Part shown: piece after piece, positions 14,324 to 64,000 of the stretch | How the letters are laid out: the number at the start of each line of letters is the position of its first letter | How positions within the stretch are numbered: position 1 is the first letter of the stretch | Assembly (NCBI RefSeq): GCF_023343835.1 | Contig: NC_064437.1 | Location: forward strand, 51,038,972 to 51,102,971 | DNA: 64,000 bases | Direction of reading: 5' to 3' | Source: Lagopus muta | Lineage: Eukaryota > Chordata > Aves > Galliformes > Phasianidae | Program-made: the position numbers and the translations under genes | Notes under the pieces: model-generated | What the model saw: the letters and a program-made list of their open reading frames with translations, nothing else | What the model was told of the DNA's origin: nothing | The model's database searches: none

Positions 14324-14354
<31 letters not shown>

Positions 14355-14634: not shown

Positions 14635-14717
14635 GGTGGGGCAGCAGGACAGTGAGCCCGGTCCGGCCCGGCCCCCCGGGAGCTCCGAGTGTGCAGCCCG
14701 GGCTCTCCGCGGGCCGT

Positions 14718-14725
14718 CTTTTATA
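14718..14725 (-). promoter_or_regulatory. CYP26A1 TATA box
   Basis: TATAAAAG on the minus strand, 84-91 nt upstream of the ATG. Transcription would begin near 14690. Confidence 0.85.
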
Positions 14726-14770
14726 CCCTTCCCAGGTTGCTGCCCACCCTACCTTACCATCCGATAAATT

Positions 14771-14787
14771 AGTTCACCCAAAGTTCA
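14771..14787 (+). promoter_or_regulatory. Proximal DR5 retinoic acid response element (R1) of CYP26A1
   Basis: AGTTCA-CCCAA-AGTTCA is an exact 6+5+6 direct repeat about 50 bp upstream of the TATA box. RAR/RXR heterodimers bind such DR5 sites. The position and hexamers match the proximal element described in vertebrate CYP26A1 promoters. Confidence 0.92.
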
Positions 14788-15540
14788 TCTTTAATTGCGG
14801 ATTGCGGCCTGGCTCCTCCCCCCGAAATCTTTAACCGTTTGCTTTGCGCGGCGCATCCCGCCCGCTGCAGACGGCCGCCGGGCAGACGGACGGGGTGCTG
14901 CGGGACCAACCGCCCCTTCGGATTTACCGCCGCGCTCCTTGGGGACCGGCAGCACCGAGGCGGAGACGTGCCCCGTCGCGGCAGCACGGAGCCTGCCGCC
15001 GGGAAGTACCCACCCTCGGGGCCCTCCCAGCCGCCGTGGGTCTCCGTCGCCGGCCCTCTCATCGCCCATCGGGACCCCTTGGTAGCCGGGCTGAGGGCTC
15101 CCCGGGCAGAGCCGCGTCGGCGGAGGTGGCTCCGCCGTCCCCCGGCTCACCTCGGAAGGCCCGGCTCGTGTTTCTGCCCGGTCTCGGAAGAAGGAGCGGC
15201 GGGCAGCGCTCCGTCTCGGCCTCCCGATGCAGGTTCAACCGCGGGTCACCGACGGAAAGGGAGGTGAGCGCGGAAAGGGAACACCCTGCCCGCTGCGCTC
15301 GGCTCCGATCTCCGCTGCCCGCCCTCGCCTGGGGCTCGCCGGGGCTACTGCGGCCGGGGAGAGGCGCTCGGCACGGCCGTACCCGCCGGGCGGGCTGTGC
15401 TCCCCTCCGGCGCAGCCCCGGGGTTCGACGTGCGGGAGTAGCGCGGCCCCGGGGCTGCAGGAGCTGACCCCGATGGGCTCCGCTATGGCCCGTGCAGAAT
15501 AAGCTCCGAAGGACGCGGCCGCCGGGCATTGCGGGGATGC

Positions 15541-16944: not shown

Positions 16945-16962
16945 ATGAACATTTCCCAGACA

Positions 16963-16968
16963 TTTATT
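16963..16968 (-). terminator. Candidate CYP26C1 polyadenylation signal
   Basis: AATAAA on the minus strand about 590 nt past the CYP26C1 stop codon. No nearer canonical signal is seen, so a 3' UTR of about 0.6 kb is likely. Confidence 0.55.
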
Positions 16969-17557
16969 CACGACAGGTCTGTGCCCCGTGCCAGGCTGCT
17001 CTCTGCATTCTGCAGGAACTCGGGATAAGGCTACATGTCAGGCCCCAGGCAGCAGTATGGCACTCAGGCACTGCACGCACAGCCACTGGGTCAACAAATG
17101 TCTCATTTGTGGTGGCTCTAATAGGAAGTGAAGGAAAGAGATGAAATATTTACAATACAAACCTCTTGACACAGTTATCCTACCTAGAGCTAATACTGTG
17201 AATTGGGCAGACCTAGCGTGTGTTTTACCCTGCAGAGCCCTCATCTTTCCTCTCTTCCACCTCTAGAAAGCTGTGCTGTGCAGGACAGGGTGTGCAGGAC
17301 GGGGTGTGCAGGATGCTCTTGCCTTTCCTTCACACACCTGTGAGAGAAAGCCCTGCGGCAGGAATGGGGCTTTGCTCCTGGGAATGTGTGTGGGCCTGGG
17401 CTGGTGGGGGTGAGGCTCCCCTTGGTGCTCAGGGCTCTATGGGACCATTCCTAATGTACTGAGCATCAGAAAGGGGAAAAACAACAAGCCTTTGGGGCTT
17501 TGCTCTGTAGTGCCTCAGCCATGACCACCGCCACTGGGCTGAGCTCAGCGTCCTGGC

Positions 17558-17917
17558 TCAGGCCTCACCGCCACGACGGGGCTGCAGGGGGTGGAAGTAG
17601 AGCTGCAGCCCGTCGACGGGGTGCACAATGGGCACGGTCTGCATGGCGGGGAAGGTCGGCGTGGCCAGTTCCCAGCGGGCCGTGGTGACCAGCTCGATGG
17701 CCAGCAGCTTCAGGATGGCCTGCGCCAGCTCCTTGCCAATGCAGCTCCGTGCCCCGCCACCAAAAGGGATGTAGTGGAAGCGGCCGGCAGCCTCCGGCTG
17801 GGTGACACTGAAGCGGTCAGGATCAAAGCCACCTGGGGGGCTCTGGTAGATGGCAGCCGTCTCATGCGTGTCACGGATGCTGTACATCACGCTCCAGCCC
17901 TTGGGGATCTGGTAACC
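17558..17917 (-). CDS. CYP26C1: CYP26C1 exon 6 (haem loop, C-terminus)
   Basis: 119 codons plus TGA. It begins [19 protein letters not shown] and contains [16 protein letters not shown] and [20 protein letters not shown]. The acceptor is CACAG|GGT. Confidence 0.96.
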
Positions 17918-20900
17918 CTGTGAGAGGAATAGAGGGGAGAGTTAGGGCCCAGCGGAAACACCTGGGGGCAGCCCCCCTTCTCCCTTTTCTGCAGGCACTT
18001 ACATCCAGCTCGAAGGTCTGTAGTGCAGTCCTGTACCCCCCAGAGACAGGCGGCAGTACCCGCAGCACCTCCTTGACCACGCAGTCCAGGTAGCGCAGGC
18101 GGCTCAGCTGCTCCAGGCTGATGTCCGAGGGGCAGCGGCAGCCCCGGGGCTGGGGGCTGCTCAAGGGGTGTGTGGGCTCCAGCGGGGCTGGGAGATGGGG
18201 GAAGCAGCCACCCCCCAGCTCTGCCTCCTCAGTGGGGTCAGGGGGCTGGTTCTGGTCCTCATGAGCATCGCTGGCTGTGCTAAGGAGTTGCTGCTTGCTG
18301 TCCCTGTCTGCTGCTGGGCAGGGTGCCATGGGGCAGTTCTGCTGGTGTGGGTACAGCTCATGGGATGCCAGCTCCTGACGGATTTTTTCGATTGCTGAGG
18401 GGTGCTTTAGCAGCAGGAGGATGAGGGAGGTGCTGGCACTGGCCGTGGTGAAAAAAGCAGCAAATATGAGCTCAATGGCTGACTCCTGGCAGGGAAGGAA
18501 AGTGACAAGTTTGAATGCCACTTTGAGCTTGTTGTGATAGGATTTTCAGACTGTTCTCAGCTTTCACAGGTTTTGTCCCTGTGCAGAGAGCCCTACCTCT
18601 GCCTCCATTCTCTACAGCCTGCACCCCCCAGTGCTGGCAGGGATCTCTATGTGACATATCCATGCTCGTCCACCTCCACACAGAGCAGACATCCACCTGC
18701 CTAGGAACTGATGCCAAAACAGCTAAGCACACATCTCTTCCATTCTGGCTCTTCTCAGCTTCCTGCCCAAAATTTACAAACCTTAACAAGAATTTCAACA
18801 TGCATTTTATCATAAAGGCTGAAGTTCACTTTAAGCATTATGTTTTTTACCTTCATCAGCACTTTCCCCTGCCTCCCCTGCAGCTTTTACCTCTCTGGCC
18901 AGCCAGGAGCAATGAGGTTGCAAGTTTATGTACAGATCACACTGGCAGCTAAAATGGGCTCCATTCAATCCATCTTGTTGTAATTGACCATTTGCTTGTG
19001 TGGGAGGGGACTCAGAACAATGCTCAGAAGCAGAAAGTTAAGAGTTACTGGAGCTAGATCTGGAGGGTGAGGCCAGAAGCACAGGGAAGGACACCTGATG
19101 TCTTAAGTCTCCTGGAGCCAATTCTGGTAAGGTCAAGAGTAACGCAGCAAAGATTTGCAACCATCACCAGCAACATAAGTTGTCTGGACTGCAGGCTTTT
19201 GCCAAAATGCAGCTCTCAAGGGCATCTTTCAGGTGAAATAACAGGTCCCTGCTGACCCCTGCACACCTCCTGCAGGCGGCAGCAGGAATCTTTACACCCA
19301 CAAGACAGCAGACACAGATGAAAATAAATCTGTGAGTTCCACAGCTTGCAATTAAAAGCCGGGATATTACAATATAGCACAAGAAAATTAGAGCAGGCTC
19401 TGTATTTTGAAATAATAGCCCTTATGACTGCCTGCATCAGCCTCTGATGGTGCTGCCATGTAAATTGTGACACTGAGAAGCTTACTTTCTCTCCCTGCTT
19501 TTACAGTGCCAACACAACCGGTGACAGTGAGGCTGCGTTCTCCCACAGCTGCCTCGGTGTGTTCCAGTGCTGCAGCTCAACTGGGAGCCAGACCACTGAG
19601 CCAGGGACAGCCAGCCCCAGGTCACTGCCATGTCACCCCATACTGTCTTCAATATCTGTGTATTCCTGCTGTTGTCATCTCACCTGTCATCAGAGCCAGG
19701 GACACGATGAGAGGTCATGTAGTTATTCTTGTGCAATACACACATGAATACTCACAAAGTTCAATCCAGACTAACTGATCACATTTTGAGTCTGGGAATT
19801 AGTTTTAGTTATCTTGAAATAAACCAGTTCTAATTGCATCTAAGAACCTCTGTAATGTCTCCCAAACACTTCAGAATTTGGAGATTACACTTCTACAAAA
19901 TATGTACGAAACATTTAGCATTGGATCACTATCCTTGAATATCTAAATAAACAGTAAAGCCATGTGTCCTGTATGTTTAAACTGCACCCATGCAAAACTG
20001 CTTCAAAACTTGCCACATGGATGCAGTGTCATGTCCCTGCCTCACCTGGAATGACCTGGAGGTGTGAATGATGCAGCACTAACGACAATTTTTTTCCCAA
20101 GACCTTTGGCAAAGTGCTCTTCACCGCATTTTGTCCCAGTGAGGACTGCTGGGTTCATCCCTAAGTCACAGCAATGAATCATATTGCATCACACAGTCCT
20201 CAAGCTCCTCAGTGTAATTAATAAGGAGATGATAGGGTATGTCCCAGAACCCATCATTCCAGCCCAGAGCCCATTTTGATGAGTTCTCTGGGCTCCCAGT
20301 CCTGAGGAATGGAGCGACATGATCTACAAGCACACTGCCCTGGGTGCAGCTCTATGTATTTCCAGGACAGCATCCTGGAGGTTATCGAGTGCACACTGAT
20401 GTACAGAATCTGAGCACAGCCATGTAAGTCTAAATGCATCCTAAGCCAGGTTGAGGCCAGATGCCTGTGAAGAGGACAGGCAGAGAGGCATTTGTTTCCA
20501 TTTTAGGCTCCAGCTCTGTTGTAAGGCAGAGCCCTACCAGCAGTCCTGCACAGCCCTCTCCTGCCACCCCTCCGTCCCACGCTCACAGCCACCGGCTCAG
20601 GAGGGAACTGCGCGGGGCTGCGATTACCTTCAGCTCCTGCATAGTGAACTCTTTGCCGTGCTCCTTGGCACTGTTTATTATGAAATCCAGAGCATCGCTG
20701 TGTTCTTCTGACATGGCTCGCTGCAGTTTCTCCTGTATGGCCCTCTCCATGAACTCATGCAGCATGTCCCGTGCTTTGATGCCCTGTGGGAGGCAGACAC
20801 GGGTCAGGAGAGCCTTGGGCACATCCCCCTCTCTGGAGAGGCTGGGGACTCCCACTCTGGTCATCTTTAATTCCAGAATCTGCAACAGCAAAGCGGAGTT

Positions 20901-22974
20901 AGCCCACTGCCAGGCCCCGGGGCCTTGCAGCAGGCAGCAGGTTGTGAGAACTGCTGAGGATTCATTGGCTTCCTGCTGTGAGTCAGTATAAGCCCTAGGA
21001 AAGGCTTTGGGATGAGTTGACAGCAGCAAACTTGTGGGACTGAATCCAGAGAGGTCTGCACCAGACAACTCCTGTCCTGGCCAGGTCCAATAGGAGCCTG
21101 TCCCATGGAGAGGGTGAGGTCACTTAATATAAGACGAGCCCTGGAAGCAAGGCACTGACAGTGACAAATGAGGGGATTTTCCAGATTGGGAACATGTTAA
21201 TCACGCCTGGCTAATCTCTGGCTGTGCAGCAAAACCAACTGAGGAGCAATGTCCTTGCAGAGCAGGAATGGATGGAGGCAGGAGGCCTCCAGCAAAGCTA
21301 GAAGGAACAGGTGGTTGGGGGCAGAAATGGCCACAGCCAGCAGCTTGGAAGTAGTTACAAAGGAGAACCCAGACAGGAAGGACTTGAGTAAAGGAAAAGG
21401 GGCAGTGAGCAGGAGGAGGTGAAGAGATTGGTCTAGGGTCAGACTGGCCATGGCTGAGCTGAGGAGGCAGGAGGGGACAGGTGGGTGGTAGAAGCTCACA
21501 ATGGTGACAGTGGGGGGTGGTGGGGAAGGTGATGGCAAGCAGAGTTCATAGAGGAAATGAGGTTGGGCAATGCCTTGATGGAAAAGGCAGGCAGTTTGGG
21601 CTGTGGAACCTAAAGCCAGATGAGAAAGAGCAGATTGAAAAGGGACAGGTGGCAAGAATGGGCAGGGCAGCAGAGAATGAACGGAGACTATGAGAGGCAT
21701 AACGGGCTGTCCCACTGCCATGTTCCCCTCCAGCACTGCACCAGGCACCAAAAAGGGGTCTCCAATGCTCAGCCTGCCCAAAGTGCACAGGGAGGTTCCT
21801 CTGTGCCTGCTGCTCTCTGCTCACACACAGACCTCTGCCACAAGTGGGCTTGAACCCAGGAGGAATGCAGTGGCACAGCAGCAGGCATTGGGTAACCATA
21901 GTTGAGGAAAAGGCTCCAGCCACGCGTGTGGCAACTCCATGCTGTACCAGAGTCTATGCAGGCAGGTGCTGGAGGCACCCAGCAGCGGGGTGGGCAGTGC
22001 CCTGGACTCATTGGGGTGCCCCTTGTCAGGCCTGAGGAAGGGGTCTGTGCAGCCACAGCCTGGCCCAGCCACGGGCAGGAGTGGGGCAGGCAGCAGTACC
22101 TTGCGCAGCCCACTGAAGGGCACATTGAGGGGCAGGGAGAAGAGGTTCTCCACCAGCTGTTCAAAGGTTTTGGCCAGGTCCTTGAACTGCTTTTCCTCCA
22201 GACGGAGTCCCAGCAGAATCTGAGCTGCAATGCGGAAAGTTAAGGTTTTAGCAGAGGAATAAACGGCGATGGAGCCCGGCTGCATGCACCAGCCCCGCAG
22301 CTCCCAGCTCACAACCTTCTGAATCCGTGGCAGGTAGCTTTCCAGGGCAGCGCGGCAGAACACTCTGGCCAGGATCTAGAAGCAGAAGGGGGGAAACAGA
22401 GGCAGGCGGTTAAAGCACGGGTCTGAGAGCTGAGCATGGGCAGGAGTTGCCCAGCCACGCACCCATGGGGCTCACCTTGCGGCGCTGGCGGTGCAGGTCG
22501 CCTGTAGAGCTGAGCAGGGTATGGGAGCCTAGGAGGATCTGGGTGCTCTGGGGCCACTGTGCGCTGACCAGTGTGTGCTCGCCCAGCAGGATCTTGCGGA
22601 CGTTCTCAGCACCCGTCACCCGCACCACCGGGCGGCCCAGCAGGTGGGTCTTGAACACGTTGCCGTAGCGCTCCCGCCGGGAGCTGTGGAAGCGGGAGCC
22701 CTAGGGACGCGCCGTGAGTCAGCTCGGGGCTCCCGCCGGCCCCCGTCCCGTCCCGTCCCGTCCCCGTCACCCCGCACCTCACCTGCAGCAGCCAATGCAG
22801 GGTCTCCCCGAAGAAAGGCCAGCCCATGGAGCCCTTGGGCAGCGGCAGGGCGTTGGTACGATCTCGGCTGAGGCTCCAGCGCAGCGCCCACAGGTGCCGA
22901 CACAGGGCGAGCAGCAGCGCCAGGAACAGCAGCGCCAGGGCGGCCGCCGCGGTCCAGCAGAGCCCGGCCGGCAT
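17558..22974 (-). CDS. CYP26C1: CYP26C1, retinoic acid-metabolising cytochrome P450 26C1, 6 exons, complete
   Basis: Spliced exons are 22783-22974, 22476-22700, 22100-22375, 20628-20783, 18003-18485 and 17558-17917, giving 563 aa, all phase 0. Members of this family hydroxylate all-trans and 9-cis retinoic acid in the endoplasmic reticulum. Visible features are the N-terminal anchor (about 6-30), LPLPKG hinge, I-helix AAFFTTAS (292-299; the family variant, where CYP26A1 has GGHETTAS), KEVLR (Glu422, Arg425), FDPDRF (475-480) and haem loop [10 protein letters not shown] with Cys503. The family form I remember is about 522 aa. The excess is mainly an expanded, proline-rich linker inside exon 5 (about residues 326-399). 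Compared with CYP26A1, exon 5 here carries both I-helix and K-helix, and the exon 4/5 joint is shifted by three codons, the expected CYP26C1 architecture. The first Met of the TATA-driven transcript is uncertain by a few codons, since the N-terminus is poorly conserved. Confidence 0.96.
18003..18485 (-). CDS. CYP26C1: CYP26C1 exon 5 (I-helix, expanded linker, K-helix)
   Basis: 161 codons from [16 protein letters not shown] to ALQTFELD. The stretch between [11 protein letters not shown] and [12 protein letters not shown] (about 18138-18359) is a Pro/Gln/Ser/Glu-rich low-complexity linker about 50 residues longer than I remember in human CYP26C1. It stays in frame without a stop. Confidence 0.94.
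18486..20627 (-). other. CYP26C1 intron 4
   Basis: A 2.1-kb intron, the longest in the gene. I see no exon, repeat family or other feature within it. Confidence 0.85.
20628..20783 (-). CDS. CYP26C1: CYP26C1 exon 4
   Basis: 52 codons beginning [16 protein letters not shown] and ending FTMQELK. The acceptor is CACAG|GGC and the donor AAG|GTAATC. Confidence 0.95.
20784..22099 (-). other. CYP26C1 intron 3
   Basis: A 1.3-kb intron. The longest open frame in it (194 codons, minus strand, 21197-21781) has repetitive Leu/Pro/Ser composition, no family similarity I recognise and no splice support. Nothing else is seen. Confidence 0.8.
22100..22375 (-). CDS. CYP26C1: CYP26C1 exon 3
   Basis: 92 codons beginning [19 protein letters not shown] and ending VPFSGLRK, including [15 protein letters not shown]. 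The acceptor is CTAG|ATC and the donor AAG|GTAC. Confidence 0.95.
22476..22700 (-). CDS. CYP26C1: CYP26C1 exon 2
   Basis: 75 codons beginning [20 protein letters not shown] and ending HRQRRK. The acceptor is CTAG|GGC and the donor AAG|GTGAG. Confidence 0.95.
22741..22768. repeat. (CCCGT)n pentanucleotide repeat in CYP26C1 intron 1
   Basis: About five tandem CCCGT units adjacent to the exon 1 donor, inside the short first intron; likely length-variable. Confidence 0.8.
22783..22974 (-). CDS. CYP26C1: CYP26C1 exon 1 (coding part)
   Basis: 64 codons from [10 protein letters not shown] to [10 protein letters not shown] leucine-rich anchor is followed by [20 protein letters not shown]. The donor is CAG|GTGAGG. 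The frame is open upstream, but the chosen Met gives the usual family length before the anchor. Confidence 0.93.
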
Positions 22975-23170
22975 CCTCCCTCCTGCGGCGCACCGCGGGT
23001 CCCGCTCCCTGCCCCGCGCCGGGAGGGCGGGGAGCGGCGGCGGTGCCCGCCCCGGCGGCTGCCACGCGCGGGGCCGGGAAGGAGACGGCGAGCGGAAAGG
23101 CCCTCCCGGCTGCAGCTGCGGCCCGCCCGGCCCCGCTCGCCTCCTGCACCCGCTTCTCCCTTCGGCCACA

Positions 23171-23178
23171 TTTATATA
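23171..23178 (-). promoter_or_regulatory. Candidate CYP26C1 TATA box
   Basis: TATATAAA on the minus strand about 200 nt upstream of the ATG, with a CCAAT box on the same strand immediately upstream (23182-23186) and a CRE-like TGACGTC at 23216-23222. Transcription would begin near 23140. Confidence 0.65.
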
Positions 23179-23540
23179 GATATTGGCCACTTAACGCCCG
23201 ATCCACCTTCGCAGATGACGTCTGCCCTGCATATTTAAGCAGCGCAGCTAAGTGCGGTGATTGGAGCCGGAGAGCCGGGATTGATGGAAGGGGCGCGGGG
23301 CGATCGGGGGCGGCAGTGGCTGCTCCCTGCGGGATGGCCCCTCGGGGGTCTCCCCCCACAGCCCGACCCGACCCGGCCCTGCCCGGCCCAGCCCAGCTTT
23401 CCCGTCTCAACCAGAACCGGGACGGTTCCCCGCTGCGCCCCGCCGCCGCACGGCATCGCGGCCCGACCCCATAACGCCCCGGTCCCACTCCGCAGGCGCG
23501 GTCCCGCAGGCGCGCTCCGAGGTAAATGACCGGGAGCCGC

Positions 23541-24380
23541 GCGGCTCCCACCGAAGTGCAGGGCCGAGTGCGTGTAAACACATTAAATCAAAGGCAAACA
23601 CGGGTAAGGTTTATATTACTGTATTTAGACGGTCAATAACTTAAAAATACAGCGAAATGTACATTATTTTTACATTTGGTTTGTATCTGTTAGACATTTT
23701 CCTCCTGTCTAAAATTGCCAGGAGGTGACTGCACAGCGCGTGGCCTGGGGCACTCCATGCTGGGATGGGGCGTTGGGACCAACAGAGGCAGCACAGAACC
23801 AACAGTGGCAAATCTATTCCCTACCCGCGCCCTGGGGAGAGCCCAGGATCTTAAAAAGTACGGTTAGAAATGGTCACCCTGAGGAACAGAACCCAGAAAG
23901 TCACATTATAAAGAACTCAAATGGTTATTTACAATCAGAAACTCAAGATTAAACTCTTTCAGAGAACAAAGCCTAGAAGTCCTAACACTAAATAAATACC
24001 AAGCCTAGCACTTGGGGAGTTCTTAAAGGTACCAAAAATGAGAAGATTTTCTCATACCTCCAGACTACACAATTCGGTAGATAAAATGATGTCCAATCAC
24101 CTTAAGGCTACTATACATTTAATGCAGGAAAGTGACAGGCAGTACCTGAATGCGGGGATCTCAGCACTTAAAAAAAAAAAAAAGAAAGAAAAAAAAAAAG
24201 AAAAAAGAAAGCAAAACAAAAAAACCAACACATTAAATTAGGATTCATCCTGAAACCAGCCATAAGGGATCACTTCTCAGATAATTCCTGCCCAGAGCAA
24301 CCCTGCAAACATCTTGTCTGCAGACACTTATAAATAATGTATTTACAGTTCAGCTGCCCCATGTTCAATGTGATAGAGCT
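23541..24380. other. Short intergenic gap between EXOC6 and CYP26C1
   Basis: AT-rich DNA with an A-rich simple repeat at about 24170-24225 and no coding signal. The EXOC6 polyadenylation site and the CYP26C1 start site are only about 1.2 kb apart in the same orientation. Confidence 0.7.
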
Positions 24381-24612: not shown

Positions 24613-24745
24613 CTATGTGTGCTGGGACATGCCATTCACCAGGCTCCTGAGCTGCTTCACCACAGTCTCAATCAGCTTCTGCTTGTCACGATCGTTCTTC
24701 CTGAACTGAGCAAAAATGTTGTTCTTTTTGCTAGAGTCTCTCATT
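24613..24745 (-). CDS. EXOC6: EXOC6 last coding exon
   Basis: One base completing the preceding Lys codon, then 43 codons beginning MRDSSKKNNIFAQFRKND and ending SLVNGMSQHT, then a TAG stop. The acceptor follows a T-rich tract ending CCTCCAG. Confidence 0.95.
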
Positions 24746-27700
24746 CTGGAGGAAAAAAAAAGGGAGTGAGGGGAGGAAATGGTACTGACATGTTAGAAAC
24801 ACCATTTGAAAAGGGAAAACCTGACTACTAAAATAGGTTTCCTTTCTACTTCAATAGGTTTACTCTCGTTCCTTTTCTGTTCTCTGCACTATAACAAACT
24901 GAAAGGTTACAAAGTCCATTATCTGTATGTTCTTAAATTAAACCTCCGGCACTCAGAGCTCGCAGTAACAAATATTACTTCCCAAATCACATTAGGCAAA
25001 TCCCACTTCAGCGGTGCTGCCCCTACAGCTGCGTAAAGAGGGAGGAAAACAAAGATCCGAGTGGAACAGTGGCTCTGGGCCGAGCTCAGGCTGCACGAAC
25101 CGCCCCCGGGCTCTACTACTGAGCTTCGTTATCGATGGATTTTAAAACGAAGTTCGGAAAACGTAATAAACTGAAGAAAAAATATTCGATAAGAGCTAAG
25201 CGGTACATACCCTCTGTGCACTCTGCAAAGCGCAGATCGTCACAGGGAGGAGAGAAAAGAGAACACCGTTAGAAAAGCCCTTCAAGCCCGCGCACGCTCC
25301 CATCCCACCGCCGCTTCCCCGCGTCTCCCGGCGCGGCGGCAGCTCCGGCTCCACAGCGGCTCCGCGGCTCCCGGCCCCGGGCAGCGCCGCAGCCGCCGGG
25401 AGGGCGGCCCCGTTCCCGGCTCCGCAGCCGCCCCGTCGGGGCCGGGCTGAGCCCCGCGGCCGGCACAGCGCATGCACTTACTTCTCCAGGAGCGTGAGGG
25501 CCGTGCTGGGGTTGACCCGCAGGTACTTGGAGGTGGCCTGCCCGTAGTCGGCCAGGTAGGTGGACCAGTCCCACACCATGAAGAGGTCCAAGAGCTGCGG
25601 GAGAAGAAGCGGTGAGCGGGCGGCAGCTGCCGGCCGCTCTCTCCCCGGGGCCCCCTCCTCGCCCTCCGCACGGCGGGAGGCGGCGGCTCGGGGCCAGGCC
25701 CAGCGGGGGATGCCAGCGGCCCCAGCCCCGGGTGATTCGCCGCGGGGAGGGAGAAAGGGATCGCTGCTCCCGGCCACCTAAAGGAGAAGCTCAGGTAGTC
25801 TCAATTAAGTGAATTAAAGAACCCCCGCGCGGGACTCTCTATGGTGACCGATCCCTACACCTCTGTCCCGAGTGCACTTTTGGATAGAAAAACTCAACTG
25901 CTTCAACGGTGAAAGAAGAAAAACCCTCCAAGTAGAGATAAGCACGCAGGCCCGGCCTTTCGCTCGCAGCCCCGGTGCCGCCGCTCGGCACCGCCGCCCG
26001 ATGCCGGCCCGCAGCAGCAGCCGATGCCAACGGGGCACCGCCGCGTTCTCCCGCAGCCGGCGCCCGGCCTCCTCGTCCCGCGGCTGGAGGCTGCTCCGGG
26101 CTGCCCTGCGCCACAGCAGCACCGGTTTGCTGTTGGAAGGAACACCCCTCCCGTTCAGCATTTGCTTCTTCTGCCTGTAAGCCAGAGCAGGGCCGCTGCA
26201 GTAAGGACCCAAGCGCCAAGCACTGCACCTTCAAACTTGCATGCTTCTGTTCTCCTCTCCTTTCTGAACCCTTAAGTTATTTTCAAATAAAGTGTCTAAT
26301 TTAATTATTTTCTAATTAATATATGTAATAAAATGCTTTCTGAACACAGAGTAACACTTCCTGTGGCACAGGTACTGCAAAGTCCTTTCAAAGTCCTACA
26401 AAAACATTACAGACTTCAGCGACGTCCAGATTTTACATCTGAACACCTCAGTTGGGTGAAAGGCAGGGAGGCTGTTCCATTCTCTGCTGACTACACATCC
26501 ACCATAGCTGTCAAGGTCGAATGCAATCAGTTCTTTCTCATAACTGCTTTCTCAGTATGGTCACCATTAATTTTCCTATTGATCTGTGGAGAATATGCTG
26601 TCAGTCACTAAGCAAACAGAGCTGGTGTGAGCTATCAGGCTCTGATAACCCAGGAATTAGCGGTATTTGTGAAGCCCCTGCCCTCACCACTGTGCGTTAC
26701 CTATCCCTTACTACCTGTGCTGAGACAGCCAGCAGTGCCCAGTCCTCACAGAGGCTGTGCAGTAAACACCAAACCATGATCAAAAGAGCAGAAAGTGGGA
26801 CAGTTGGACAGACAACATGAGGGGAAGATAAAGCTGACAGCCACAGGCACACAGGCTACATAAACTGGAGACTTCATGTTTCCTCTCTCTCACAAAGAAG
26901 CAAACAGAACGCATGAATCAATTACCACCAACTACAGAGCCACTTGCCACTTGGGATCCACATGGAGAAGGTCTTTATAAAAGGACCACACTGATGTTCT
27001 TGCAGCAGCTGTGTTCAGTAAACCAAATTTGTAGGGGTAGGAAATATCCCCATTGCAGCACTGACACTGTGGTCTTCGTACCATCGGTGTTTGAGTCACT
27101 CAGTGACAGTGAGGGTGGAAGGTCAGACCTACCAACCAAACACAGTCTGGCACGTAGGGCTCCAAAGGGGCTGCAGACACTGCAGAAGGTCGCAGGCTGC
27201 TGCTGTGCACAATTAGGTACGGTGGTTCAGTCCCCCTGACAGCTGCAGTGCTGTACTGTGGCACACTGCTGCACTAACGGGCTCTGACAGCGGTACTATA
27301 CTGCAGGTGGGCAGGAACTGCTTGCTTCTCTCACGTCTGTGTTCCCCTGCATCTGATGTGATGCTCGGCAGCATACAGCTCATGTGGGCAGAAAGGCCTC
27401 TTTAAGGTGGGATTGTCTTGAGCACACACACACGAGCTGGAAGACAGCCCATCCATCCAAAGATGCTGACAAGTGTTTGGACTACTTCATATAATTCCAG
27501 CTGGCCTACCTAATCCTGTGGTAGTTAGTAGAGGGTAAAGATACCTTGATCTTTATGTACAAGACTCTTGAAAGATAACAGAAGAGCATGAAGATGCAAT
27601 AAATAAATTTTTTTACCACATGCAAACTGAAAGCTGTGTGGAATTTATCATGAAAATTAACACTTGGCCATCTTCCTCAACAGAAGGAAAAAAACACCAA

Positions 27701-45700: not shown

Positions 45701-48700
45701 CAGTTCTAACACTGATAATAAAAGGAGAATAAAAGAGAAACCAAAAGAGGAAGGTCGTTAGTCAAGGCAAGATTTGTACTTTGCCAGACTTAAACTATCA
45801 AATATGTTGAAGTCTGGTGCTCCTAATATTTAGGTATCTCATTAATGAATCTTATGGCCATGATCCTACATTCTTCTCAGACAGGCTAGGCTTATCCCGT
45901 TGTAGATATTGTTCATTATGTTATGTTCCGCTAAGAATATAATGGGTAAATCGAGCTTTAAACTTTCTCATTTAAAAATATACTTAGTCCTTTCCAATTA
46001 TCAGGAGAAATCAGAACACTGTTGCCAAGGGAACTTTCCCTTCTGAAATGCCTTTCTATTATCTTACTGTGAAAAAGAAACTACCAAACTATTAAAAGCA
46101 AACATGTTCTTACTACATAGATAATTTTGCATTTCTACTCTTTTCTGATGACTATGACAGACACATAATGGTGCTGAAAAATCTTATCAGCATCTGCAGA
46201 AAGCTAAAGAGCCTCCTTGTGCAGCTAATGTTCCATTTCGCTATTTAAATAACACTTTGTACTTGAAATTTTGTGAAACAAATTCTTTAAAATTTACTTC
46301 AAGTGTGAAAGGTTTATGAAAATGAATTACTATGGTTGGATATATTATCAGAATTCAGAGAGCAGGGAATAGAAATGACTACATGAAATTAAGATAAGTT
46401 AACTTTAGTCTGGAAAACATCCTTCCTTTAGACAACAACTGAGAAAAAGTGATTTCAATAGCAAGGCACTTTAACTTAATTTTGGTACAGAATAAAGATC
46501 AGCTGGCTGGAATAAAGTGACTTTCTAACTGTTTAAAAGAATATGTACTAAGTAAAGGAAACATTAATACTATGCTTGATTCTACTCTCCAGGGAGTCAT
46601 TCCCTAGAAAGGAGCAATTGCTCAGAATGAAACAACAGTAACAGCACACCAGGGTAACGTGTACTCTTTCAAAAAAAATTAAAAAAGCATTGCAGGATCT
46701 TCACAAAACAGTCAGGACGAAAATTCAATGTTACATCCATGTAATAATACCACCAGTACAACGGTGCCCCCCAACACCACCTTGAAAAAATAGTTTTATA
46801 CTAAGTAACAGGGAGTAGTGCCACTAGTAACTGCTTTTCAAAACCAATTACATGGGAATGCTAAAACATGAAAGGTTCTCAAATTTAATAACTCCAGCAT
46901 TGGTCAAAAGGGGAAATTAGTAGGATAAAAAACAACAACTAGTGTCTTACTTGTCTGAGGTCGATGAAAGCTAACTGCAGGGTGTCTCCCTGGAATCCTG
47001 GCACAGGCTCAGAACTAGCAAACACTGCAAGAAAAAGATCAAAATTATGGATGTATATTTTTTATAATCTAACATAAAAATTAGCACTATGCATTATAAA
47101 TGATAGCTAGCATTAAAATGAAATCAGTTTGATGCAAACACATTACAACTATTTAACCCACCCTAATTAAAAACAAAAGAACCAACAAACAAAGCGTTCC
47201 AAGAACAATATCTTTAGGAAGACATTTAGGTTACAATTCTAAACCAGCAATAATCTTACAAACATTAAAGCCAACAACTTCACATTTTCAGCCTGAGGTG
47301 AGTGATTACTGAGATATTTTGAAATAACACCAATTCCATGGCTGTCAGCATATTTTCAAACATCTGCTTTTGTTACAGCATCTGCTCTATAAAACACCAC
47401 CTCTATCCAAACAGCAATAAAAGACAATAAGGTGAGAGCTTGTTAAATGTGTGGACAACAGGTGGAAAACTCTAAGTGCCACAGTCAGAACAGAACTGAA
47501 ATGTCTGTTCATGATAATGAACTTCTGCTCTTCTTGAACCCAAAAACAGACTGACAAAATTGGAAGGTAAAGCTATCAGCTAAGCACAAAAAATAACACA
47601 TATGTATGAAACAAACCAGCTATTTATTTAAGTTAGGAAACCTCAAAGATTTTCAAACCTAAAAATTAATGATTTTATTATTTATTTTATTGTCATATGC
47701 AATTTGAAGGCAATTAAAGAAAAGTCAATAATCTATAAAAGAAGGGAAACATCACAGATTTCTGTTATTATTAAGTGAAAATAGTAAAATTAGAAATTCA
47801 TTAAAACTACAAATCCCCAAAGTAGTACATCATAGCTAAACTAATAATCAAGAAATATCAGAAAGCATTGATGTACTGTAAAGAAGTTCAATGCTTTCAG
47901 GAAAGAGAAAACAACAAAGCTTTCCATCATGCCCCCTCCTTTGTTCATGTCACAGAGAGCTATCAAATTAAGACTTCAGCAGTTTCCCACTTCCTTCTAT
48001 GAAAATCACATGAACACAAGCTCAGCAAAATGTCCTGACATTTCAGGTGGCTTCAGGATGTACTCAAAAGAAGCACTGATGGGATGGAATTTTATAGCAG
48101 ACATATTGAAAAGTATCCATGTGCAGGCACTGCCTTCTCTTAAATGTAAAGAAATAAAAAGCTGTATGATGATAACACTTAAAAAGTTGGAGATCAGGCA
48201 CAATATGGCACATGCTATGTAATCAGTAGTCTTATATATGATCAGAAGGCCTGCTCATGAACTCCATCCAGCCCTTCAGACAGCAGTACTTCAGTAGACT
48301 AATAACCAAAGTCAAGGAAGTCATTAACTGTGTGCAAAAAGATGAAAAGGAAACTATCACTGACTTACTGCTTCTCTTAACACAAGAAATAATGGACAAT
48401 GAAATAAATGGAGAGAATGTTACAAATCAAAATACTTTTTCATAGAACACAGTACATTATGGGACTCATTCTCAAGACAGGTTGCGCGTAACAGAAATAC
48501 AAATGAGAAACAAGTATAAATGTAAAAAATGTATATTTGTAATACAGGCCGTTCCACAACAATTATACAGAATAGTCTGAATACACTGTTCATTAAATCC
48601 CTATGTACTGCTGGAAGATGGATCTGCAAAGGGAGGGGCCACTCAATAAACAGCTGGTGTTTTATGATCTTCTCTAAATACTGTCACTGATCATTGCTAG

Positions 48701-53000: not shown

Positions 53001-56000
53001 GTGAAAACATTTTCTTTTTCTACTATGCTTTAAAAGCATTGTAAAAAGAAATAATTACAGTCTAATCTATTTGCAGTTGTACATATTTCAGACATTAGAA
53101 ACAGAATAACAAGGCAGAGGGCAAGCACTCTCTGCTTTTATGCTGTTTGTTCAGAAGGCAAATGACTGTGTAGTGGATGCACCAGTTCAGCTTGTCTAGG
53201 TGAACTATTCAGTGTCAGCACTATGAATATTATGCAATTTGCTTTCACAGCCACAATCTTTTTTTAAAATTGGGAATGCAGATGAATGCACATGCACATA
53301 GCCCTACCCATCTACTAGAAAAGAACACTTACATTCGCATTATCAAATGCACTAAGAATCAAACATCAAAACATCATCTGTGGCCAACTTGTGCAATCAC
53401 ATCCTAGGACAAACCTTAACGTCATGATCGCAAATATTATCGGTTGTTCCGAAAGTAATGCCTCTTATTTAGAAACTACAACAGATACAAAGAGTACAAA
53501 ATGGGTAAATACTCTGCTACAAAACACTGTTTTTTAACATAGTTACTATCATTAGTTATGCATTTTCACCAGCTGTGAACAAGAGCCTGCATGCCATGCT
53601 TGTAAACATCTGCATGGCCATCCAGAGCATGGCTTGCATTTCACACTGCTATTGCCACTGTCACATGGCAACAACACTTAAAGGAATACTAGTGGGAAAG
53701 TTTAATCTCTATTGCCATACCACCAATATTCACCTCTGATGTCGTGGGCCAACAGAATAAAATCTGAGGCATTACTTTCGGAGCAGCCCTTGTATATTTT
53801 TTTCCAAACAGATCCTGATAATCCTGTCAGTTCACCTCATGCACTGAAAAGCTCTAAGTCTGCAATATGAAGGGCCTGTCAGAAAGGTGCCTTCATTTCT
53901 TGCTGCAGAGTTTTAAATGGAATGTAACAAATAGAGTAGGAAGTGGAAAGATGTGCATGTGGTCATCAAAAATTTCTATTACCTTTGCCCCTGGAATCCC
54001 ACAAGAATCCTTCGTGATGCTAACTAAATTGCTTGAAAACAAATTTCCAATTACCCATAGCTGGCTGCTAATTGAGCAGACATCAGGTTTCTTTTTCATG
54101 TGCCCAAGCTAAACACAAGAGATACACAGAACTGCCACATTCTAGAGAGGTTGCTAAAATCACTGAGATCTGTGCCTCAAACATATAAGAGGAAAGATAA
54201 TTTGGGGAAAAAATACAAAACAACAACAAACAGAGCATGAGAGACTAAAGATATGCATTAAAGAAGTCCTAGCGAGCCTTCTTAGTGAACCTCAGCCATC
54301 AGCGAAAATAGGCATAAAATCTACTCACATCACAACGTTATGAAATTACTTCCTTAATACAGAGTAAAAGCTCATCTTACAGTTGTGAATTCCATGTAGA
54401 ACATGGGGAAATTAATCCCGTCATCGGTGCTAGATTCAACCAGTTTTATTAAATAATTCTGATACTATATTTTGAATAGTGAGTTGATGTTTACTAAATG
54501 AGCACTACCACTCTGCACAGTGAGCAAGCATTGGTTCTAGGAAGGAGAAAACTCTTTGTAACAGCACAATTAAAATTTGTACTGTAATAAATACTTTAAT
54601 AAATCATCTCAAGTGGGAAAATTAAAATTTCACAGACATTTGACTTTGTTGTGCTTAACTTTACAATCATAATATTTATGTAGTATTTCTGGTCAATTCT
54701 GTGCTAGACCATAGTCATCTTTTTACTGGATGTAGCGACCATGATTCCATTAGAAGTAGCAACAGTTGTATACTTCAATCAGATACTAAAGTTTAAAAAA
54801 AAAAAAAATCTTAATTTTTTCCCCAAAATTGTTAGCCTACTTACTTGTAAGTACTTTTAAAGGAAACTGTAACTAAATCATATTAAAAACAGCAACAACA
54901 AAATGGCAAAACTTTAGTAGATTATAGAAAAAGATGACTATATGGTTAACATTAAATACTTTCTTTTGTAATTTTAAGACAGACATAGGTAAGAATACCA
55001 GAACATCTACTTACATTCACACTGTATCACATCTAAATTAAACTGCTGAATTGCTCCCATGCTTATTTGTTTTAATTCAGTGTCCAGTAGCATCTGCATT
55101 AGAGATGTTGAAAGATGCTGGCAGGCTGACATGCAAGCTGTCTGGGCCACTTTTCCCTAATAGAAAGAGCAACACATTTTTAGATAGAAACAAATGATAT
55201 ATTACTAAGGAACAGCTTATCTGATTTGATTTTATTATATGCTCAATGTCTTAATGATGCAGGACTTAGATTAGAAGAAGAATGATCACACTTTTGGCTG
55301 TTTCTCTGGCCTGTTAGCTTTGTTTCTATGAAATCAATTAGGAAACTAAATTAAATGGATGTCAAACAATTATTGATACGTCTTCCAGAAATCCAACAGC
55401 CTTCAAGGATACAAGGACATTTCCAAATAAAGAAGAGCATAATAACAATATAAGCTGTGGATGCATGAGTATTATTATTTTTTTCACTCAGAATGAAAGT
55501 AAAAAAGTATATCAACCTGCTACATATTTTTAACAACAGCCATTTAAAGAAAAAAAAGAGATATTAACGAAAACCATTGATTTCAATTGGGGCATTTCTC
55601 ATAGCAGCTTACTCTAATCATGGACACTTTAGTTGCCTGAACTTCATCTCAAAGATTGTTGATAAATTATTGAAAATGTTCATGATATCTATCATCTTTT
55701 TGGGTGCTTAATAAATCAGTGCTGTCAGTAATCAACCATGTACAGAATGAAACACAGCCCTCTGCTGTACAGAATAGAAATAATTTTTCAATCATAGGCT
55801 AGTTAGTAACATTTCTCTTCACAACATATGAGTAATTGAGACAAATCATTTCCAGACCAGAGAACAATAAAACAAATCACAAAAATCAGAAGTTAATTTT
55901 ACAAATTATTAACATTTTAGTACATAAAATTATAAAAAATATGGAAATTCTGCTATAGAAGAAAAACCAATTAAGAGCAGATACTCAATCAGATGCCAAC

Positions 56001-59000: not shown

Positions 59001-61957
59001 ACTTACAAAGCACATAAACTGTAAAAACCTTTATACACATCCTCTATGTTTTCAAACAAACTAATCTAAAAATAAAAGGCTTGATTACTCTTAAGCTGTT
59101 CAAAATACGAACTTAAAAAATGCAGGTCCTCAACAAGTTTTATCATTCAATTGTCTTTATGAAGTTAACAGCTGTATGATGAAAATTGGATTTTCTTTCT
59201 GATTAGAAGTATCTAATGACACCATACATTGCAGCATGAATCTAAAACAGGCTGTTTATATAAAAGAGACTGAAAACAACAATAATCACAAAAAAATAAA
59301 TTCTTGTGACTTCAGAAATCAGAATCCTTAAAAGCTACATGACTCAGAAGTTATAAGCTTTCAAAAGCAATGTATCCTCTGTGCCATTCACCCCTGGAAT
59401 GTTAGCAGTGCTCAGTCATGATACAACCAGCATACTGACGCCTACCCAACAGTAACAGGAAATATTTCTAAATAAAACAGTCAATGTTCCCAGTGCTCAT
59501 GTCACCTCGACAGTTCATCATAAGTATTCAATTAACAGAAATTTTCACTGGAATACACAACTAGCATTATTCAGTCCAAACTCCTACTTTATGGACTACT
59601 TCCTACTCTACTAGTTCAGGTTCATTGGCTTTTTACTTGGTTGATCTAGAAAAAGTTTTGAAGTAGCAAGCTGTGTCTTATTTATTCCTCTTCTCAAAAG
59701 GCCTCTGCCTACAGATTGGAACTATATGTGATCTAACACAGTGCAGTGTAACACTGTAGTGATGGGGAGGCAATTGGAAATTTCCATAATCTGCTAAAGC
59801 AGCTGGGTAAAGTTAGGAAAAAAATCATTCTGTTCATCTCTCTTTTCATTAGTGAAGCACATGTGTAGAGGAACATCTTTCAATGAAACAGACAAACTTT
59901 TCCCACTTGGAAAGGTGGCGTGGGAACTATTTTTAAAGGAGTTCTTGTATGGAACCCTTATCCTCTCAGTTATCTGGAGAGAGAAGGAGAGAAGCTCTCC
60001 AGACTGTGAAAGGAAGAGATGAAGATGTAAGTACATGAACACCATCGGATTCTAGAATAAAACCACAGCTGGAAGTCACTGTTACAGGGAGAACACTGAC
60101 ATTTCAAAAACAAAGCTCTTCCAGGTGACTCCCAGCTGCAGAACATCAGCTTCCCTGCCCTGCCCTCGCTATGACACGGCATGCCCATCTTGAAGCTGAT
60201 GGCATTTCTTAACAAGATCACCAATCTCAAGTCCAATGGAAGTAGAGAACTGAGAACATCAATGAGGATTTTACATGTTGGAAACATATCCCTTATTTGC
60301 AGTACCTTTCTTTAAAGTACACTCTTCTGCTGAGTTTTTAGATGAGGTGTTTTATTTAGATGTGTCCATGTAGGTTAAGTCACAAATCAAGCTTTAGTTT
60401 TATCTTTTGTCAAATTTCGGGGTAAATTTAGGTAGCAAACTAAAAATCCTAAAAAAAAAAACCGAAAAACAAAAACCAACACCAAAAAAAAAAAAAAAAA
60501 AATTGAACATTTAAACCATCTCATATTAAAACAAAATAGAACAAACCTAACAATTTAATATATGTCCAATGTATTTTCTTGGCAGTCAGGAGTAAAATTA
60601 ATTATTTAATGGATGCTACTCAGCTTTGCAGACACTCTCTGCACATTTAAACACAAACTACTTCAGATCCACTTCCAGCTTCCCTGATAATCAAGACATT
60701 GAGATTCCCCCAGTTATTTTTGGCACCTAATCCTAAGAGTATTGTTCTGTAACAAAATTGTCTAGATGTCTGGCTGCTCTTCATACAAAATCTAATCTAC
60801 ACTACAAATACAACAACTGAAGTTTTCTGACATTACTATTGAAAATTGAAAAATAGAGCAAAGAATCTTAAATAACAACATTGATTCTACAACTTTTTCC
60901 CCCTTTAACAGATATATTTTAATTCCAAATTGTTATGGTTATTACTGACAGTTGTTTCAACACAAACTGAAGGCTTTAACTAATAGAATAAAATGCCTCT
61001 TTCATATTTGTCCACCTCTTGCACATGTATTTGAAGCTTATGCTCTATTGAGTACAAGAACACATCTGTGGACCAGTTAGATACTGAGTATTAAAACTTT
61101 TACTCTGGTCACTAACATTAAATTATATATAATTATCATTATTAAACTCTAATTATTCTTTTCCCTGAGAAGATCATTTTAACTGTAAATTTTACATCTT
61201 TCATAGCATTAATTCCCACACTGTGTACAGTAAGTGCATTATATGCTTGTTCACTTAGTGAATGGCACAGTGTACATTTGTTCAATTAAGCAGCATACAG
61301 TAATAAGATTCAATTAACTGGAGATGATAAACCAAAATTATATGTTCACAGAAAATCAGTGAAGTAATAATAATAATTTCAACATTTTCGTTATAATAGA
61401 AATGTTACGCTAAATCAAAATAAAGTGCTTGTACAAAAATTCATGACCTGAAAGTAATCAGAGCTTGGAAGAATTGCAATCCATCATCTTCTAAAAAATA
61501 TATGTATTTGGGCAAACACACTCCCTAGATGCCAGACAGACGTAGCAGAGAAAAGAAGGACCTTTCATTAATACTTTATTCTGTTATATCACTCCACCTC
61601 AATTCTGGATGCCTCACCGCTGCATTTTGATACCTGACCTCACTCTTGAAAGGCTTCAGAGCCTCCTCTAAATGATCTCATTTGGGATGCAATGCACACC
61701 CACCTGCTTTCTGCAAGGCTTTTAGGGCTCCTGCCATTCCAGTGTACGAAAGCCCTGTGTTAGTCATTAACCTGATTCCTGCATGCAATCACACAAGGTA
61801 CACAGCGAAACATCAGCAAAACAAAAATATCTTTTTATTAAATGATTAAAAATTGAAGCAATAAGCCTGCAGGCAGTTCATAGTTTTTTCAGTTCACATG
61901 CTTTTTCTTCATCTTGCATCTACTTACCGACATAGCTGCATGGTCATTGTTGTTATT
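24613..61957 (-). CDS. EXOC6: EXOC6 (Sec15 subunit of the exocyst), 3' part only
   Basis: Five coding segments of a gene that continues beyond the right edge: 61928-61957 (probable microexon), 55015-55156, 46951-47024, 25482-25594 and 24613-24745. Joined phases agree (0, 1, 0, 2) and give the family C-terminus GKVAQTACMSACQHLS, VIQCELFASSEPVPGFQGD, LRQLLDLFMVWDWSTYLADY and KLIETVVKQLRSLVNGMSQ. Sec15 is the exocyst subunit that binds Rab GTPases such as Rab11 on vesicles and links them to the tethering complex at the plasma membrane; this part is the C-terminal helical bundle. I chose EXOC6 over EXOC6B from wording such as CELFASSEPVPGFQGD and from synteny with CYP26C1/CYP26A1. The introns here are very long (up to 21 kb). 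Confidence 0.93.
25270..26150. other. CpG island over the penultimate EXOC6 exon
   Basis: GC-rich, CpG-dense DNA with abrupt borders against AT-rich flanks, centred on the exon at 25482-25594 and extending about 0.55 kb into the 21-kb intron. No gene start is known to me here. It may be an orphan CpG island, an alternative promoter or an enhancer. Confidence 0.7.
25482..25594 (-). CDS. EXOC6: EXOC6 penultimate exon
   Basis: 37 codons plus 2 nt: LLDLFMVWDWSTYLADYGQA and SKYLRVNPSTALTLLE. The acceptor is CGCAG|CTC and the donor GAGAA|GTAAGT. Third codon positions are almost all G or C, unlike the other EXOC6 exons here, because the exon lies in a CpG island. Confidence 0.96.
25595..46950 (-). 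other. 21.4-kb EXOC6 intron
   Basis: No coding exon is recognisable. Visible structure is limited to the CpG island at its left end, a CpG-containing segment with a 92-bp palindrome at about 32.5-33.4 kb, and scattered A-rich or T-rich tracts. Open frames are short and show no family resemblance. Confidence 0.75.
32979..33070. repeat. 92-bp imperfect palindrome, MITE-like
   Basis: Outer arms TTTTCAAAGC (32979-32988) and GCTTTGAAAA (33061-33070) are exact inverse copies. Inner arms CCCATT (33017-33022) and AATGGG (33029-33034) flank a 6-nt centre, and the intervening parts pair partially. The layout resembles old palindromic DNA-transposon remnants known from reptile genomes; the family assignment is inference. 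Confidence 0.65.
46951..47024 (-). CDS. EXOC6: EXOC6 internal exon
   Basis: Two bases completing a Leu codon, then 24 codons: FASSEPVPGFQGDTLQLAF and IDLRQ. The acceptor is CTTGCAG|TG and the donor CAA|GTAAGA. Confidence 0.96.
50005..50074. repeat. (TA)n-(TG)n-(TA)n microsatellite
   Basis: Alternating TA runs flank a TG run, then a GATGA interruption and another TA run. It is likely hypervariable and cruciform-prone. Confidence 0.95.
51199..51325 (-). mobile_element. CR1 non-LTR retroposon, 3' end fragment
   Basis: It begins with the CR1 terminal octamer-type repeat (AATCACAGAATCA) and continues with the family signatures GGTTGGAAAAGACCTTAAAG and AAGTCCAACCC. The terminal repeat is on the left, so the element lies on the minus strand. 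It is a typical 5'-truncated copy; the right boundary is approximate. Confidence 0.85.
52903..52919. repeat. Two tandem ACAGAATC units (possible CR1 tail)
   Basis: Two copies of the 8-bp unit found at CR1 3' ends occur without adjoining CR1 body sequence. It may be an extremely truncated CR1 insertion or chance. Confidence 0.35.
53440..53793. mobile_element. Non-autonomous mariner-family element (Galluhop-like)
   Basis: Terminal inverted repeats share the 17-bp core TCCGAAAGTAATGCCTC at the left and its exact inverse at the right (GAGGCATTACTTTCGGA). TA dinucleotides flank the ends, the mariner target-site signature. The element is about 354 bp and has no transposase frame, so it is an internally deleted copy. 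The two ends differ by about 2 nt in the outermost bases. Confidence 0.82.
55015..55156 (-). CDS. EXOC6: EXOC6 internal exon
   Basis: 47 codons plus 1 nt: GKVAQTACMSACQHLSTSLM, QMLLDTELKQISMGAIQQFN, LDVIQCE. The acceptor is ATTAG|GGA and the donor GAAT|GTAAGT. Confidence 0.96.
55157..61927 (-). other. 6.8-kb EXOC6 intron
   Basis: AT-rich, with homopolymer A or T tracts (for example 58719-58744 and 60451-60502). No exon or recognisable element is seen. Confidence 0.8.
60451..60502. repeat. A-rich simple repeat
   Basis: Runs of A separated by CC, CG and AACC interruptions, ending in 19 consecutive A. Confidence 0.85.
61928..61957 (-). CDS. EXOC6: Probable 30-nt EXOC6 microexon
   Basis: The ten codons NNNNDHAAMS are bounded by a pyrimidine-rich acceptor (TTTCCTTCTCAG) and a strong donor (TCG|GTAAGT). 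Both ends are phase 0, so inclusion or skipping keeps the frame. It sits directly upstream of GKVAQTACM; in the canonical EXOC6 protein as I remember it, that segment directly follows HLP from the preceding exon, so this would be an optional insertion. There is no transcript evidence in the sequence itself. Confidence 0.62.
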
Positions 61958-64000
61958 CTGAGAAGGAAACCAGTAAGGCAATCAAATCAAAACAAAAAAT
62001 TAAGATGTACTGTCAACATCAAAAAAAAAAAAAAAAGAATAAAAAATTGGTAGCAATAAAAGATAAGGAAACGTTTCCAAAAAATAACATTTATATAATT
62101 GCTTAAAAAAAAAAAAAAAACAGCACACCTTTGAAATTATACAGTATTTTGCCATTGTACAACAAAGAGATTATAATTGAAATAATACTGGTTCAGCAAT
62201 AAAATGTTTTTCTATAATAAAGAACCATATGCCAAAATATTAAAACAGCAAACTTCAGATTGGGAAACATCTGTTCTTATGCCTTTCCAAAAAGTTTTCT
62301 ATATAACAAATAATACATTCCAAAATACTTGTGCCATGTTTACTGTCTTGGCCTATGAAGGCTATCTGTATGGTATAAACATACTTAGGCAAAATTTAGA
62401 ATGGCTTAGGACAGTAATAATTGAAATGTTACACAGTCCTTAAATAACTGTTAATGCAAAGGTAATGGTGCTATAACTGGAAGATGGAATGAGTATATTT
62501 TCTTTTCCAAAACTGATGCTAAAGCACAGTACATATATACAGAGGAGAAAACTAAGATGTAAAACTTAACTGAAAAAAAAACATTCAAAGACATGTTTGC
62601 AGTGATTCCATGGGTCTAGCAGACTCCAGCAAACTTGTGCCATGAAATGTGCAAGTTCAAAAACATTGAGATCATGGTCTGATTTAGATCTCTTATGTTC
62701 CAATTATAATAATACACAAATTTCACAAAACATTTAACAGAGAAAGTATGTTTTTAAAACTTATGTCTACACCGTTACAGAAATAATTCAGTATAGCCTC
62801 AGGTGAGAGCATAAAAGGAGACCTGCAGGTGTGTTTCCACAGCTTACACATATACCTGAGACAAGACAGGGCTCTAATGACAGGAATCCAACATCCACCA
62901 AAAAGTAAACAGATTGTAACACCCCTACTGGAAAACTGAGTTTGAAACAATATTAGATAGAATGTCAACGACCCTTTAACCAGACTATGGAAGATGAACA
63001 TAGCAAACTGATGCTCAAGCTCCAGCAAAAACCCCTTCAATACCACAGGATATACCATGATAGGAAATAATTCCTCCATTTGTCCTGCTTTTTTTTTTTT
63101 TTTTTTTCCTAAAATTACAACCACTGCTCAGGATTTTTTTTGATTTCCAGTTACAGACATGGTTCTGACAAACCATTTTGTGCAGTAGGATTGTTTCTGC
63201 CAGCAATACAAACTGTTACAGAAATGACACAGCGACAGTCTTATTCTGCTAATGGAAATACATACTAAAACTCTTCCAGTTTTAACTGTGGCATAAGCTA
63301 ATCCAGTTTTGGTTAGGACTCCATAGCACTAGTATTTTACTGAGCTATGGAATCTAGTTCTGAGCTTGCCATTGAAAATCTTTATTATACATTTTCTCTT
63401 GATAAAATAACTTACTACTACATATCTAACAAGAACCACCACAATTACACTGTTCACGCATTTTCATACAGTCTCCACAGCACATACACAACATTTACAG
63501 GACTGCACGTTTCCACAATCTGCCAAGCCAGAGTGATACAGAGGGAAATCCAAAAGCAACAAAAAACCTCCTGCCAGACCAGACTGCTCAGCCATACAGC
63601 TCCAGCTTGTTAACTGGTCAAAGTTTAAATTACAAAATAAACAGTTCATAGGAACAACCTTTCTCCAAAGGTTGGCTTGCATCCTCAGGCACTTATTTCT
63701 ATGCCTTTAATGTTTTTCAAGTCTCTTAATGCCATAGATGCTACTTTCCAACCCTTCTAACAAATTATCTCATTCAAGAAACCTACAACTTTCTTTCAGC
63801 AGATAGTAGGACATTTAAATTTCTGTCTGTACTCTATTTTAGAAGACCTATATCACAAGCTGTACATCATTGTTCACAGCTGCTATACACAAATAGCCAT
63901 TGAGGAGCAGCGCCATTTGTTTGATGAGTAACAAAAAGGTTACAGTGAATTTAACCAACAAGCATGTTATCCTTTAAAAAAAGTGCTCAGTTGACTTGGC
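61958..64000 (-). other. EXOC6 intron running off the right edge
   Basis: I looked for the preceding exon, expected to end in FTHLP, and did not find it. The stretch has several poly-A and poly-T tracts, including 19 T at 63089-63107, and no other feature. Confidence 0.7.

Follow-up and report, generated by a model that had tools for sequence, protein, structure and literature searches.

The EXOC6 cassette

The 64,000-nucleotide (nt) stretch of Lagopus muta DNA analysed here (the window, C8:51038972-51102971) contains on its minus strand coding exons of a gene that we take to be EXOC6 (Sec15A), and within an intron of this gene lies a 30-nt open cassette, at 61928..61957, that is very probably a real exon and that would add the peptide NNNNDHAAMS to the protein. 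The exons of EXOC6 were located by tblastn using a fragment of human EXOC6, which placed four coding exons downstream of the cassette on the same strand, and the splice sites were read to fix where each exon ends; the preceding exon falls beyond the window and was taken from the genome (1.03 Gb) of this same bird. The analysis covers the sequence of this one bird genome. An earlier, sequence-only reading of the window had proposed a 30-nt phase-0 open cassette at these coordinates without naming a strand. Its position and phase were right, and the cassette reads on the minus strand; translation of the same 61928-61957 on the plus strand gives RHSCMVIVVI.

On the minus strand the sequence around window positions 61957-61928 runs ...CTTCTCAG, then the 30 nt of the cassette (AATAACAACAATGACCATGCAGCTATGTCG, translated as NNNNDHAAMS with no stop), then GTAAGT. 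The acceptor is TTACTGGTTTCCTTCTCAG and the donor is TCG followed by GTAAGTAG. The 3′ splice site region, ATTTGATTGCCTTACTGGTTTCCTTCTCAG, occupies 61958..61987 (minus strand) with a TGC nearby at 61980-61978, and the 5′ splice site TCG/GTAAGT occupies 61922..61930 (minus strand). The exon preceding the cassette ends on a codon boundary, ...ACT CAT TTA CCT/GTAAGT (L002:3441, equivalent to 64941 on the scale of the window), and the exon that follows begins on one, ...CTATTAG/GGA AAA GTG. Because both flanking coding exons meet codon boundaries (...THLP / GKVAQ...), the cassette keeps the reading frame, and the spliced product containing it would read ...FTHLP-NNNNDHAAMS-GKVAQ.... At 30 nt it is therefore within the 51-nt limit used here for microexons, a multiple of three, open in the frame of the gene and in phase 0 on both sides. 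The following exon, GKVAQTACMSACQHLS..., has a phase-0 start and lies at 55015..55156 (minus strand). The earlier reading had put the cassette precisely upstream of this GKVAQTACM exon; it is indeed the next coding exon found, in phase 0, but it is 6.77 kb away. Canonical vertebrate EXOC6 presumably joins ...THLP straight to GKVAQ, without NNNNDHAAMS.

Splice sites were scored using position matrices. The acceptor of the cassette scored 9.5 and its donor 9.1, and the other EXOC6 exons in the window gave values of 8.8-16.0 for four acceptors and 7.9-9.2 for three donors. Both sites, judged by sequence, are thus of normal strength for this gene, in agreement with the good acceptor and consensus donor that had been proposed. 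Within its 9,784-nt intron the cassette ranked first among the in-frame ones, with a summed score of 18.6 versus 13.0 for the next one using another acceptor. When the portion of the window taken up by EXOC6 (38.4 kb) was simulated 200 times with a first-order Markov model and searched for in-frame cassettes of 9-51 nt, one with both sites equally good occurred in 10 of the 200 simulations. Taken by itself, the EXOC6 sequence is suggestive of an exon but not decisive. A search of the genome with the 100 bases around the exon, which ignores very common words, returned a single match, the locus itself, making an exonised repeat unlikely.

Among the matches listed, the open-access literature on EXOC6, EXOC6B, Sec15 and the exocyst does not report this exon, and gene and transcript databases may well list it. 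The available passages of a paper on circ-EXOC6B (PMC7017197) do not mention the microexon. A degenerate pattern of its coding sequence had no exact-pattern match in viral and prokaryotic contigs, from which nothing follows given those hosts.

A matching cassette in EXOC6B

A search of the genome with the GKVAQ exon identified two places, EXOC6 itself and C7:70011355-70011495 (74% identity). The preceding exon is also present in the C7 gene, at 74% identity and ending FAVFTHLP; the C7 gene is therefore the second Sec15 gene, which we take to be EXOC6B. EXOC6 and EXOC6B separated in the genome duplications early in vertebrate history. The matching EXOC6B intron spans 18,647 nt, and its two boundaries are both in phase 0 (CACCTCCCG/GTAAGG ... 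TTGCAG/GGGAAGGTG). When its in-frame open cassettes of 6-60 nt were ranked, with each site required to score at least 4, the top cassette (18.7) was again 30 nt long and in phase 0: GGGGATGTAGATGCCCACTCTACCATGTCG, encoding GDVDAHSTMS and followed by the donor GTGAGT, at C7:69998896-69998925 (L008:7197-7226). On the sense strand, each of the two microexons is the sole in-frame 9-51-nt cassette scoring at least 18.5 in the sequence searched (91.5 kb for EXOC6 and 60 kb for EXOC6B).

The two microexons have 15 of their 30 bases and 3 of their 10 residues in common, the residues being the sixth, His, and the terminal MS; ATGTCG stands directly before the donor in both. Their BLOSUM sum was reached by 0.32% of 20,000 random pairs of open AG-30-GT cassettes. 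With both strands counted, the two regions contain 563 open AG-30-GT cassettes, a pool that includes both microexon peptides; three of these reached the sum of the pair against NNNNDHAAMS, so that one of the three is unrelated. Comparison of the 400-nt flanks revealed one in-register match, 17 bases with 15 identical that extend across the donor (E value 0.084; ATGTCGGTAAGTAGATG at window 61917-61933 and ATGTCGGTGAGTACATG at L008:7221-7237), and six further short matches, all out of register. Conservation of the exon and its splice sites was thus found in the paralogue only. With the same intron, the same length and a similar peptide multiplied as if independent, the joint chance is about 7 in a million using the BLOSUM sum and 5 in 100,000 using identity. 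Because EXOC6B holds an exon of the same length and phase in the matching intron, chance is a very unlikely explanation; we are highly confident that the 30-nt cassette of EXOC6 is a real exon, and the pair of exons suggests that it is probably older than the EXOC6/EXOC6B split.

Motifs in the downstream introns

The intron downstream of the EXOC6 microexon has motifs of two kinds, which were recorded before the EXOC6B exon came to light. Two are of the RBFOX type, a GCATG 27 nt into the intron (61897..61901, minus strand) and a full TGCATG 141 nt in (61782..61787, minus strand); the third, TAATGACTAAC, which spans nt 159-169 of the intron (61759..61769, minus strand), pairs a QKI-type ACTAAC core with a TAAT half-site. 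All three are candidate enhancers of inclusion. The EXOC6B microexon is followed by ACTAAC at +112 and GCATG at +158. For comparison, 4.0% of the 200-nt windows in the EXOC6 intron contain ACTAAC, as do 2.2% of those in the EXOC6B intron; it is one of six 6-mers common to both 200-nt downstream flanks, and the sharing alone is not striking. Within 300 nt upstream, neither microexon has ACTAAC or GCATG. Both microexons have the layout ACTAAY plus GCATG within 300 nt downstream and neither upstream, a layout that 19 of the 916 positions sampled in the EXOC6 intron and 37 of the 1802 sampled in that of EXOC6B show, or about 2% in each. Taken together, the EXOC6B microexon resembles that of EXOC6 in its intron, length, phase, last six bases and downstream QKI and RBFOX core motifs, but differs from it in its peptide (GDVDAHSTMS), its donor (GTGAGT), a UGC- and CUCUC-rich upstream region and the lack of a full UGCAUG within 200 nt downstream.

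Two known exons offer points of comparison. The passages available of one report (PMC12064062) describe a striated-muscle microexon of Snap23 whose skipping rose on depletion of MBNL, QKI or RBFOX2. Like the EXOC6 microexon, it is short, preserves the frame and belongs to a gene for vesicle docking; QKI and RBFOX2 motifs lie in the 300 nt downstream of it, and there are none upstream (PMC12064062, same passages). Its regulation was tested by knockdown, whereas the regulation proposed for EXOC6 is read from motifs. An alternative exon of mouse Exoc6b, the paralogue of EXOC6, is oligodendrocyte-selective according to the passages available of a second report (PMC6952364).

A number of points count against assigning the two exons to QKI and RBFOX. 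A lone GCATG is present in 30% of 200-nt windows of the EXOC6B intron, and it is in the 200 nt downstream of the EXOC6B microexon that TGCATG is absent. The layout rule was set with prior knowledge of both flanks and of the Snap23 paper, and the sampled positions overlap; likewise, QKI sites were sought in EXOC6 only after the oligodendrocyte passage (PMC6952364) had been read, and the available passages of that paper do not identify which Exoc6b exon is the selective one. The donor of the Snap23 exon is weak where that of EXOC6 is strong, and, as its authors say, deletion of the QKI motif in Snap23 disagreed with QKI knockdown (PMC12064062, in the passages available). With modest confidence, we favor inclusion in glia or muscle under the control of QKI and RBFOX over control by SRRM3/4, which is the main rival.

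Competing explanations

A very improbable account of the pair is that a decoy cassette in EXOC6 happens to be joined by an unrelated one in EXOC6B. Two results weigh in that direction: the summed splice score of the EXOC6 cassette was equalled in 49 of the 200 simulated 38.4-kb stretches, and on the antisense strands the two regions each contain one cassette that scores higher, at 20.6 (21 nt) and 19.3 (12 nt). Other results count against our main reading. The runner-up in the EXOC6B intron, a 15-nt cassette, is close (17.8 versus 18.7). An identity of 3 in 10 residues is low and was reached in 2.4% of the 20,000 random pairs. Degenerate patterns for the run of Asn and for DHAAM had no match in the 60-kb EXOC6B stretch, and tblastn with the ten-residue EXOC6 peptide missed the EXOC6B exon, which was found by the splice-cassette scan alone. 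Against coincidence, both cassettes lie in the same intron, which makes up 9.8 of the 91.5 kb searched in EXOC6 and 18.6 of the 60 kb in EXOC6B, they share one length among the 15 that were tried, and their peptides are similar by the BLOSUM sum and by identity, at the frequencies given above.

If the microexon is real and ancient, it could still be neuronal, activated by SRRM3/SRRM4 through upstream UGC motifs and released from PTBP1, an account that we consider unlikely. Its size and phase fit. SRRM4-dependent neuronal microexons resemble that of EXOC6 in length, in phase and in having one UGC near the acceptor, and differ in their UGC enrichment, which EXOC6 lacks. The earlier reading had invoked SRRM4 on the strength of a TGC about 20 nt upstream; this TGC is present, at −23, but the count of two in the 100 nt upstream is ordinary, as evidenced by the 47% of windows in the same intron that reach it, and CTCTC/TCTCT is absent from these 100 nt. 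The enrichment is found instead at the EXOC6B microexon, farther upstream, with six TGC between −67 and −37 (a count that 5.3% of intron windows reach) and four CTCTC/TCTCT matches in the upstream 75 nt (1.9%), so that the EXOC6B microexon may answer to SRRM4 or PTBP1 as well. Judged by these motifs, SRRM4 control of the EXOC6 microexon is weakly supported. Nor did any paper among the open-access matches listed concern a microexon of EXOC6, EXOC6B or the exocyst by its title or the start of its abstract. It is also conceivable, and to our minds distinctly improbable, that the exon is included in most bird tissues and hence is no switch. Its acceptor and donor are similar in strength to those of the neighboring exons, which would suit such use; however, the canonical vertebrate EXOC6, as we presume it to be, joins ...THLP directly to GKVAQ, and so short an exon usually needs help for its recognition. 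On the full statement, that EXOC6 has a real, optional, frame-keeping microexon that predates the split and whose inclusion is raised by QKI and RBFOX, we are evenly divided.

Proposed role of the insert

In the mechanism that we propose, inclusion of the microexon would be raised by QKI and RBFOX proteins binding within 200 nt downstream of it, most likely in particular cell types, with glia or muscle the first candidates. Oligodendrocytes are a cell type rich in QKI. Inclusion would add the ten residues NNNNDHAAMS to the C-terminal domain of Sec15, between ...FLRSTFQVFTHLP and GKVAQTACMSACQHLS.... The placement in this domain, put forward in the sequence-only reading, is borne out by the exons downstream: their joined protein matches Pfam Sec15_C (PF04091; E value 2.8e-29) and the Drosophila Sec15 structure PDB 2a2f (E value 1.4e-17). 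The 2a2f match starts just past the insert, and since the query started at the insert, the upstream side was outside the comparison. The insert most likely lies in a loop between two helices, to judge from the proline and from flanking sequence that looks helical on either side.

It is plausible that the insert alters partner binding, because the C-terminal domain of Drosophila Sec15 binds Rab11. The most far-reaching form of the proposal is that both vertebrate Sec15 genes keep an ancestral ten-residue splice switch, for which QKI and RBFOX would be the main regulators in glia or muscle, and that the insert changes the contact with Rab11 or another partner, so that these cells have a different exocyst; this we put forward tentatively, as a possible but rather doubtful reading. 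Exocyst subunits are commonly seen as housekeeping parts. Were the proposal true, an insert kept at the same spot since the duplication of Sec15 would mean a vesicle tether tuned by cell type. The proposal also points to one defined exon, to the junctions it would form and to possible regulators. Furthermore, comparison of paralogues provides cheap support for a microexon from one genome without transcript data.

Remaining exons and neighboring genes

Beyond the GKVAQ exon, the other EXOC6 coding exons in the window, all on the minus strand, are one ending ...FASSEPVPGFQGDTLQLAFIDLRQ (46951..47024), one beginning LLDLFMVWDWSTYLADYGQATSKYLRVNP... (25482..25594) and the last, up to the stop codon (24613..24745; ...RSLVNGMSQHT). 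The exon at 25482-25594, which precedes the last coding exon by about 0.7 kb, is set in very GC-rich sequence, unlike the AT-rich intron around the microexon. Next to EXOC6, at window 13600-23600 on the minus strand, are open frames that resemble two cytochrome P450 genes. One of the three frames tested matched Pfam p450 and the other two gave no match; we presume the two genes to be CYP26A1 and CYP26C1, the usual neighbors of EXOC6.

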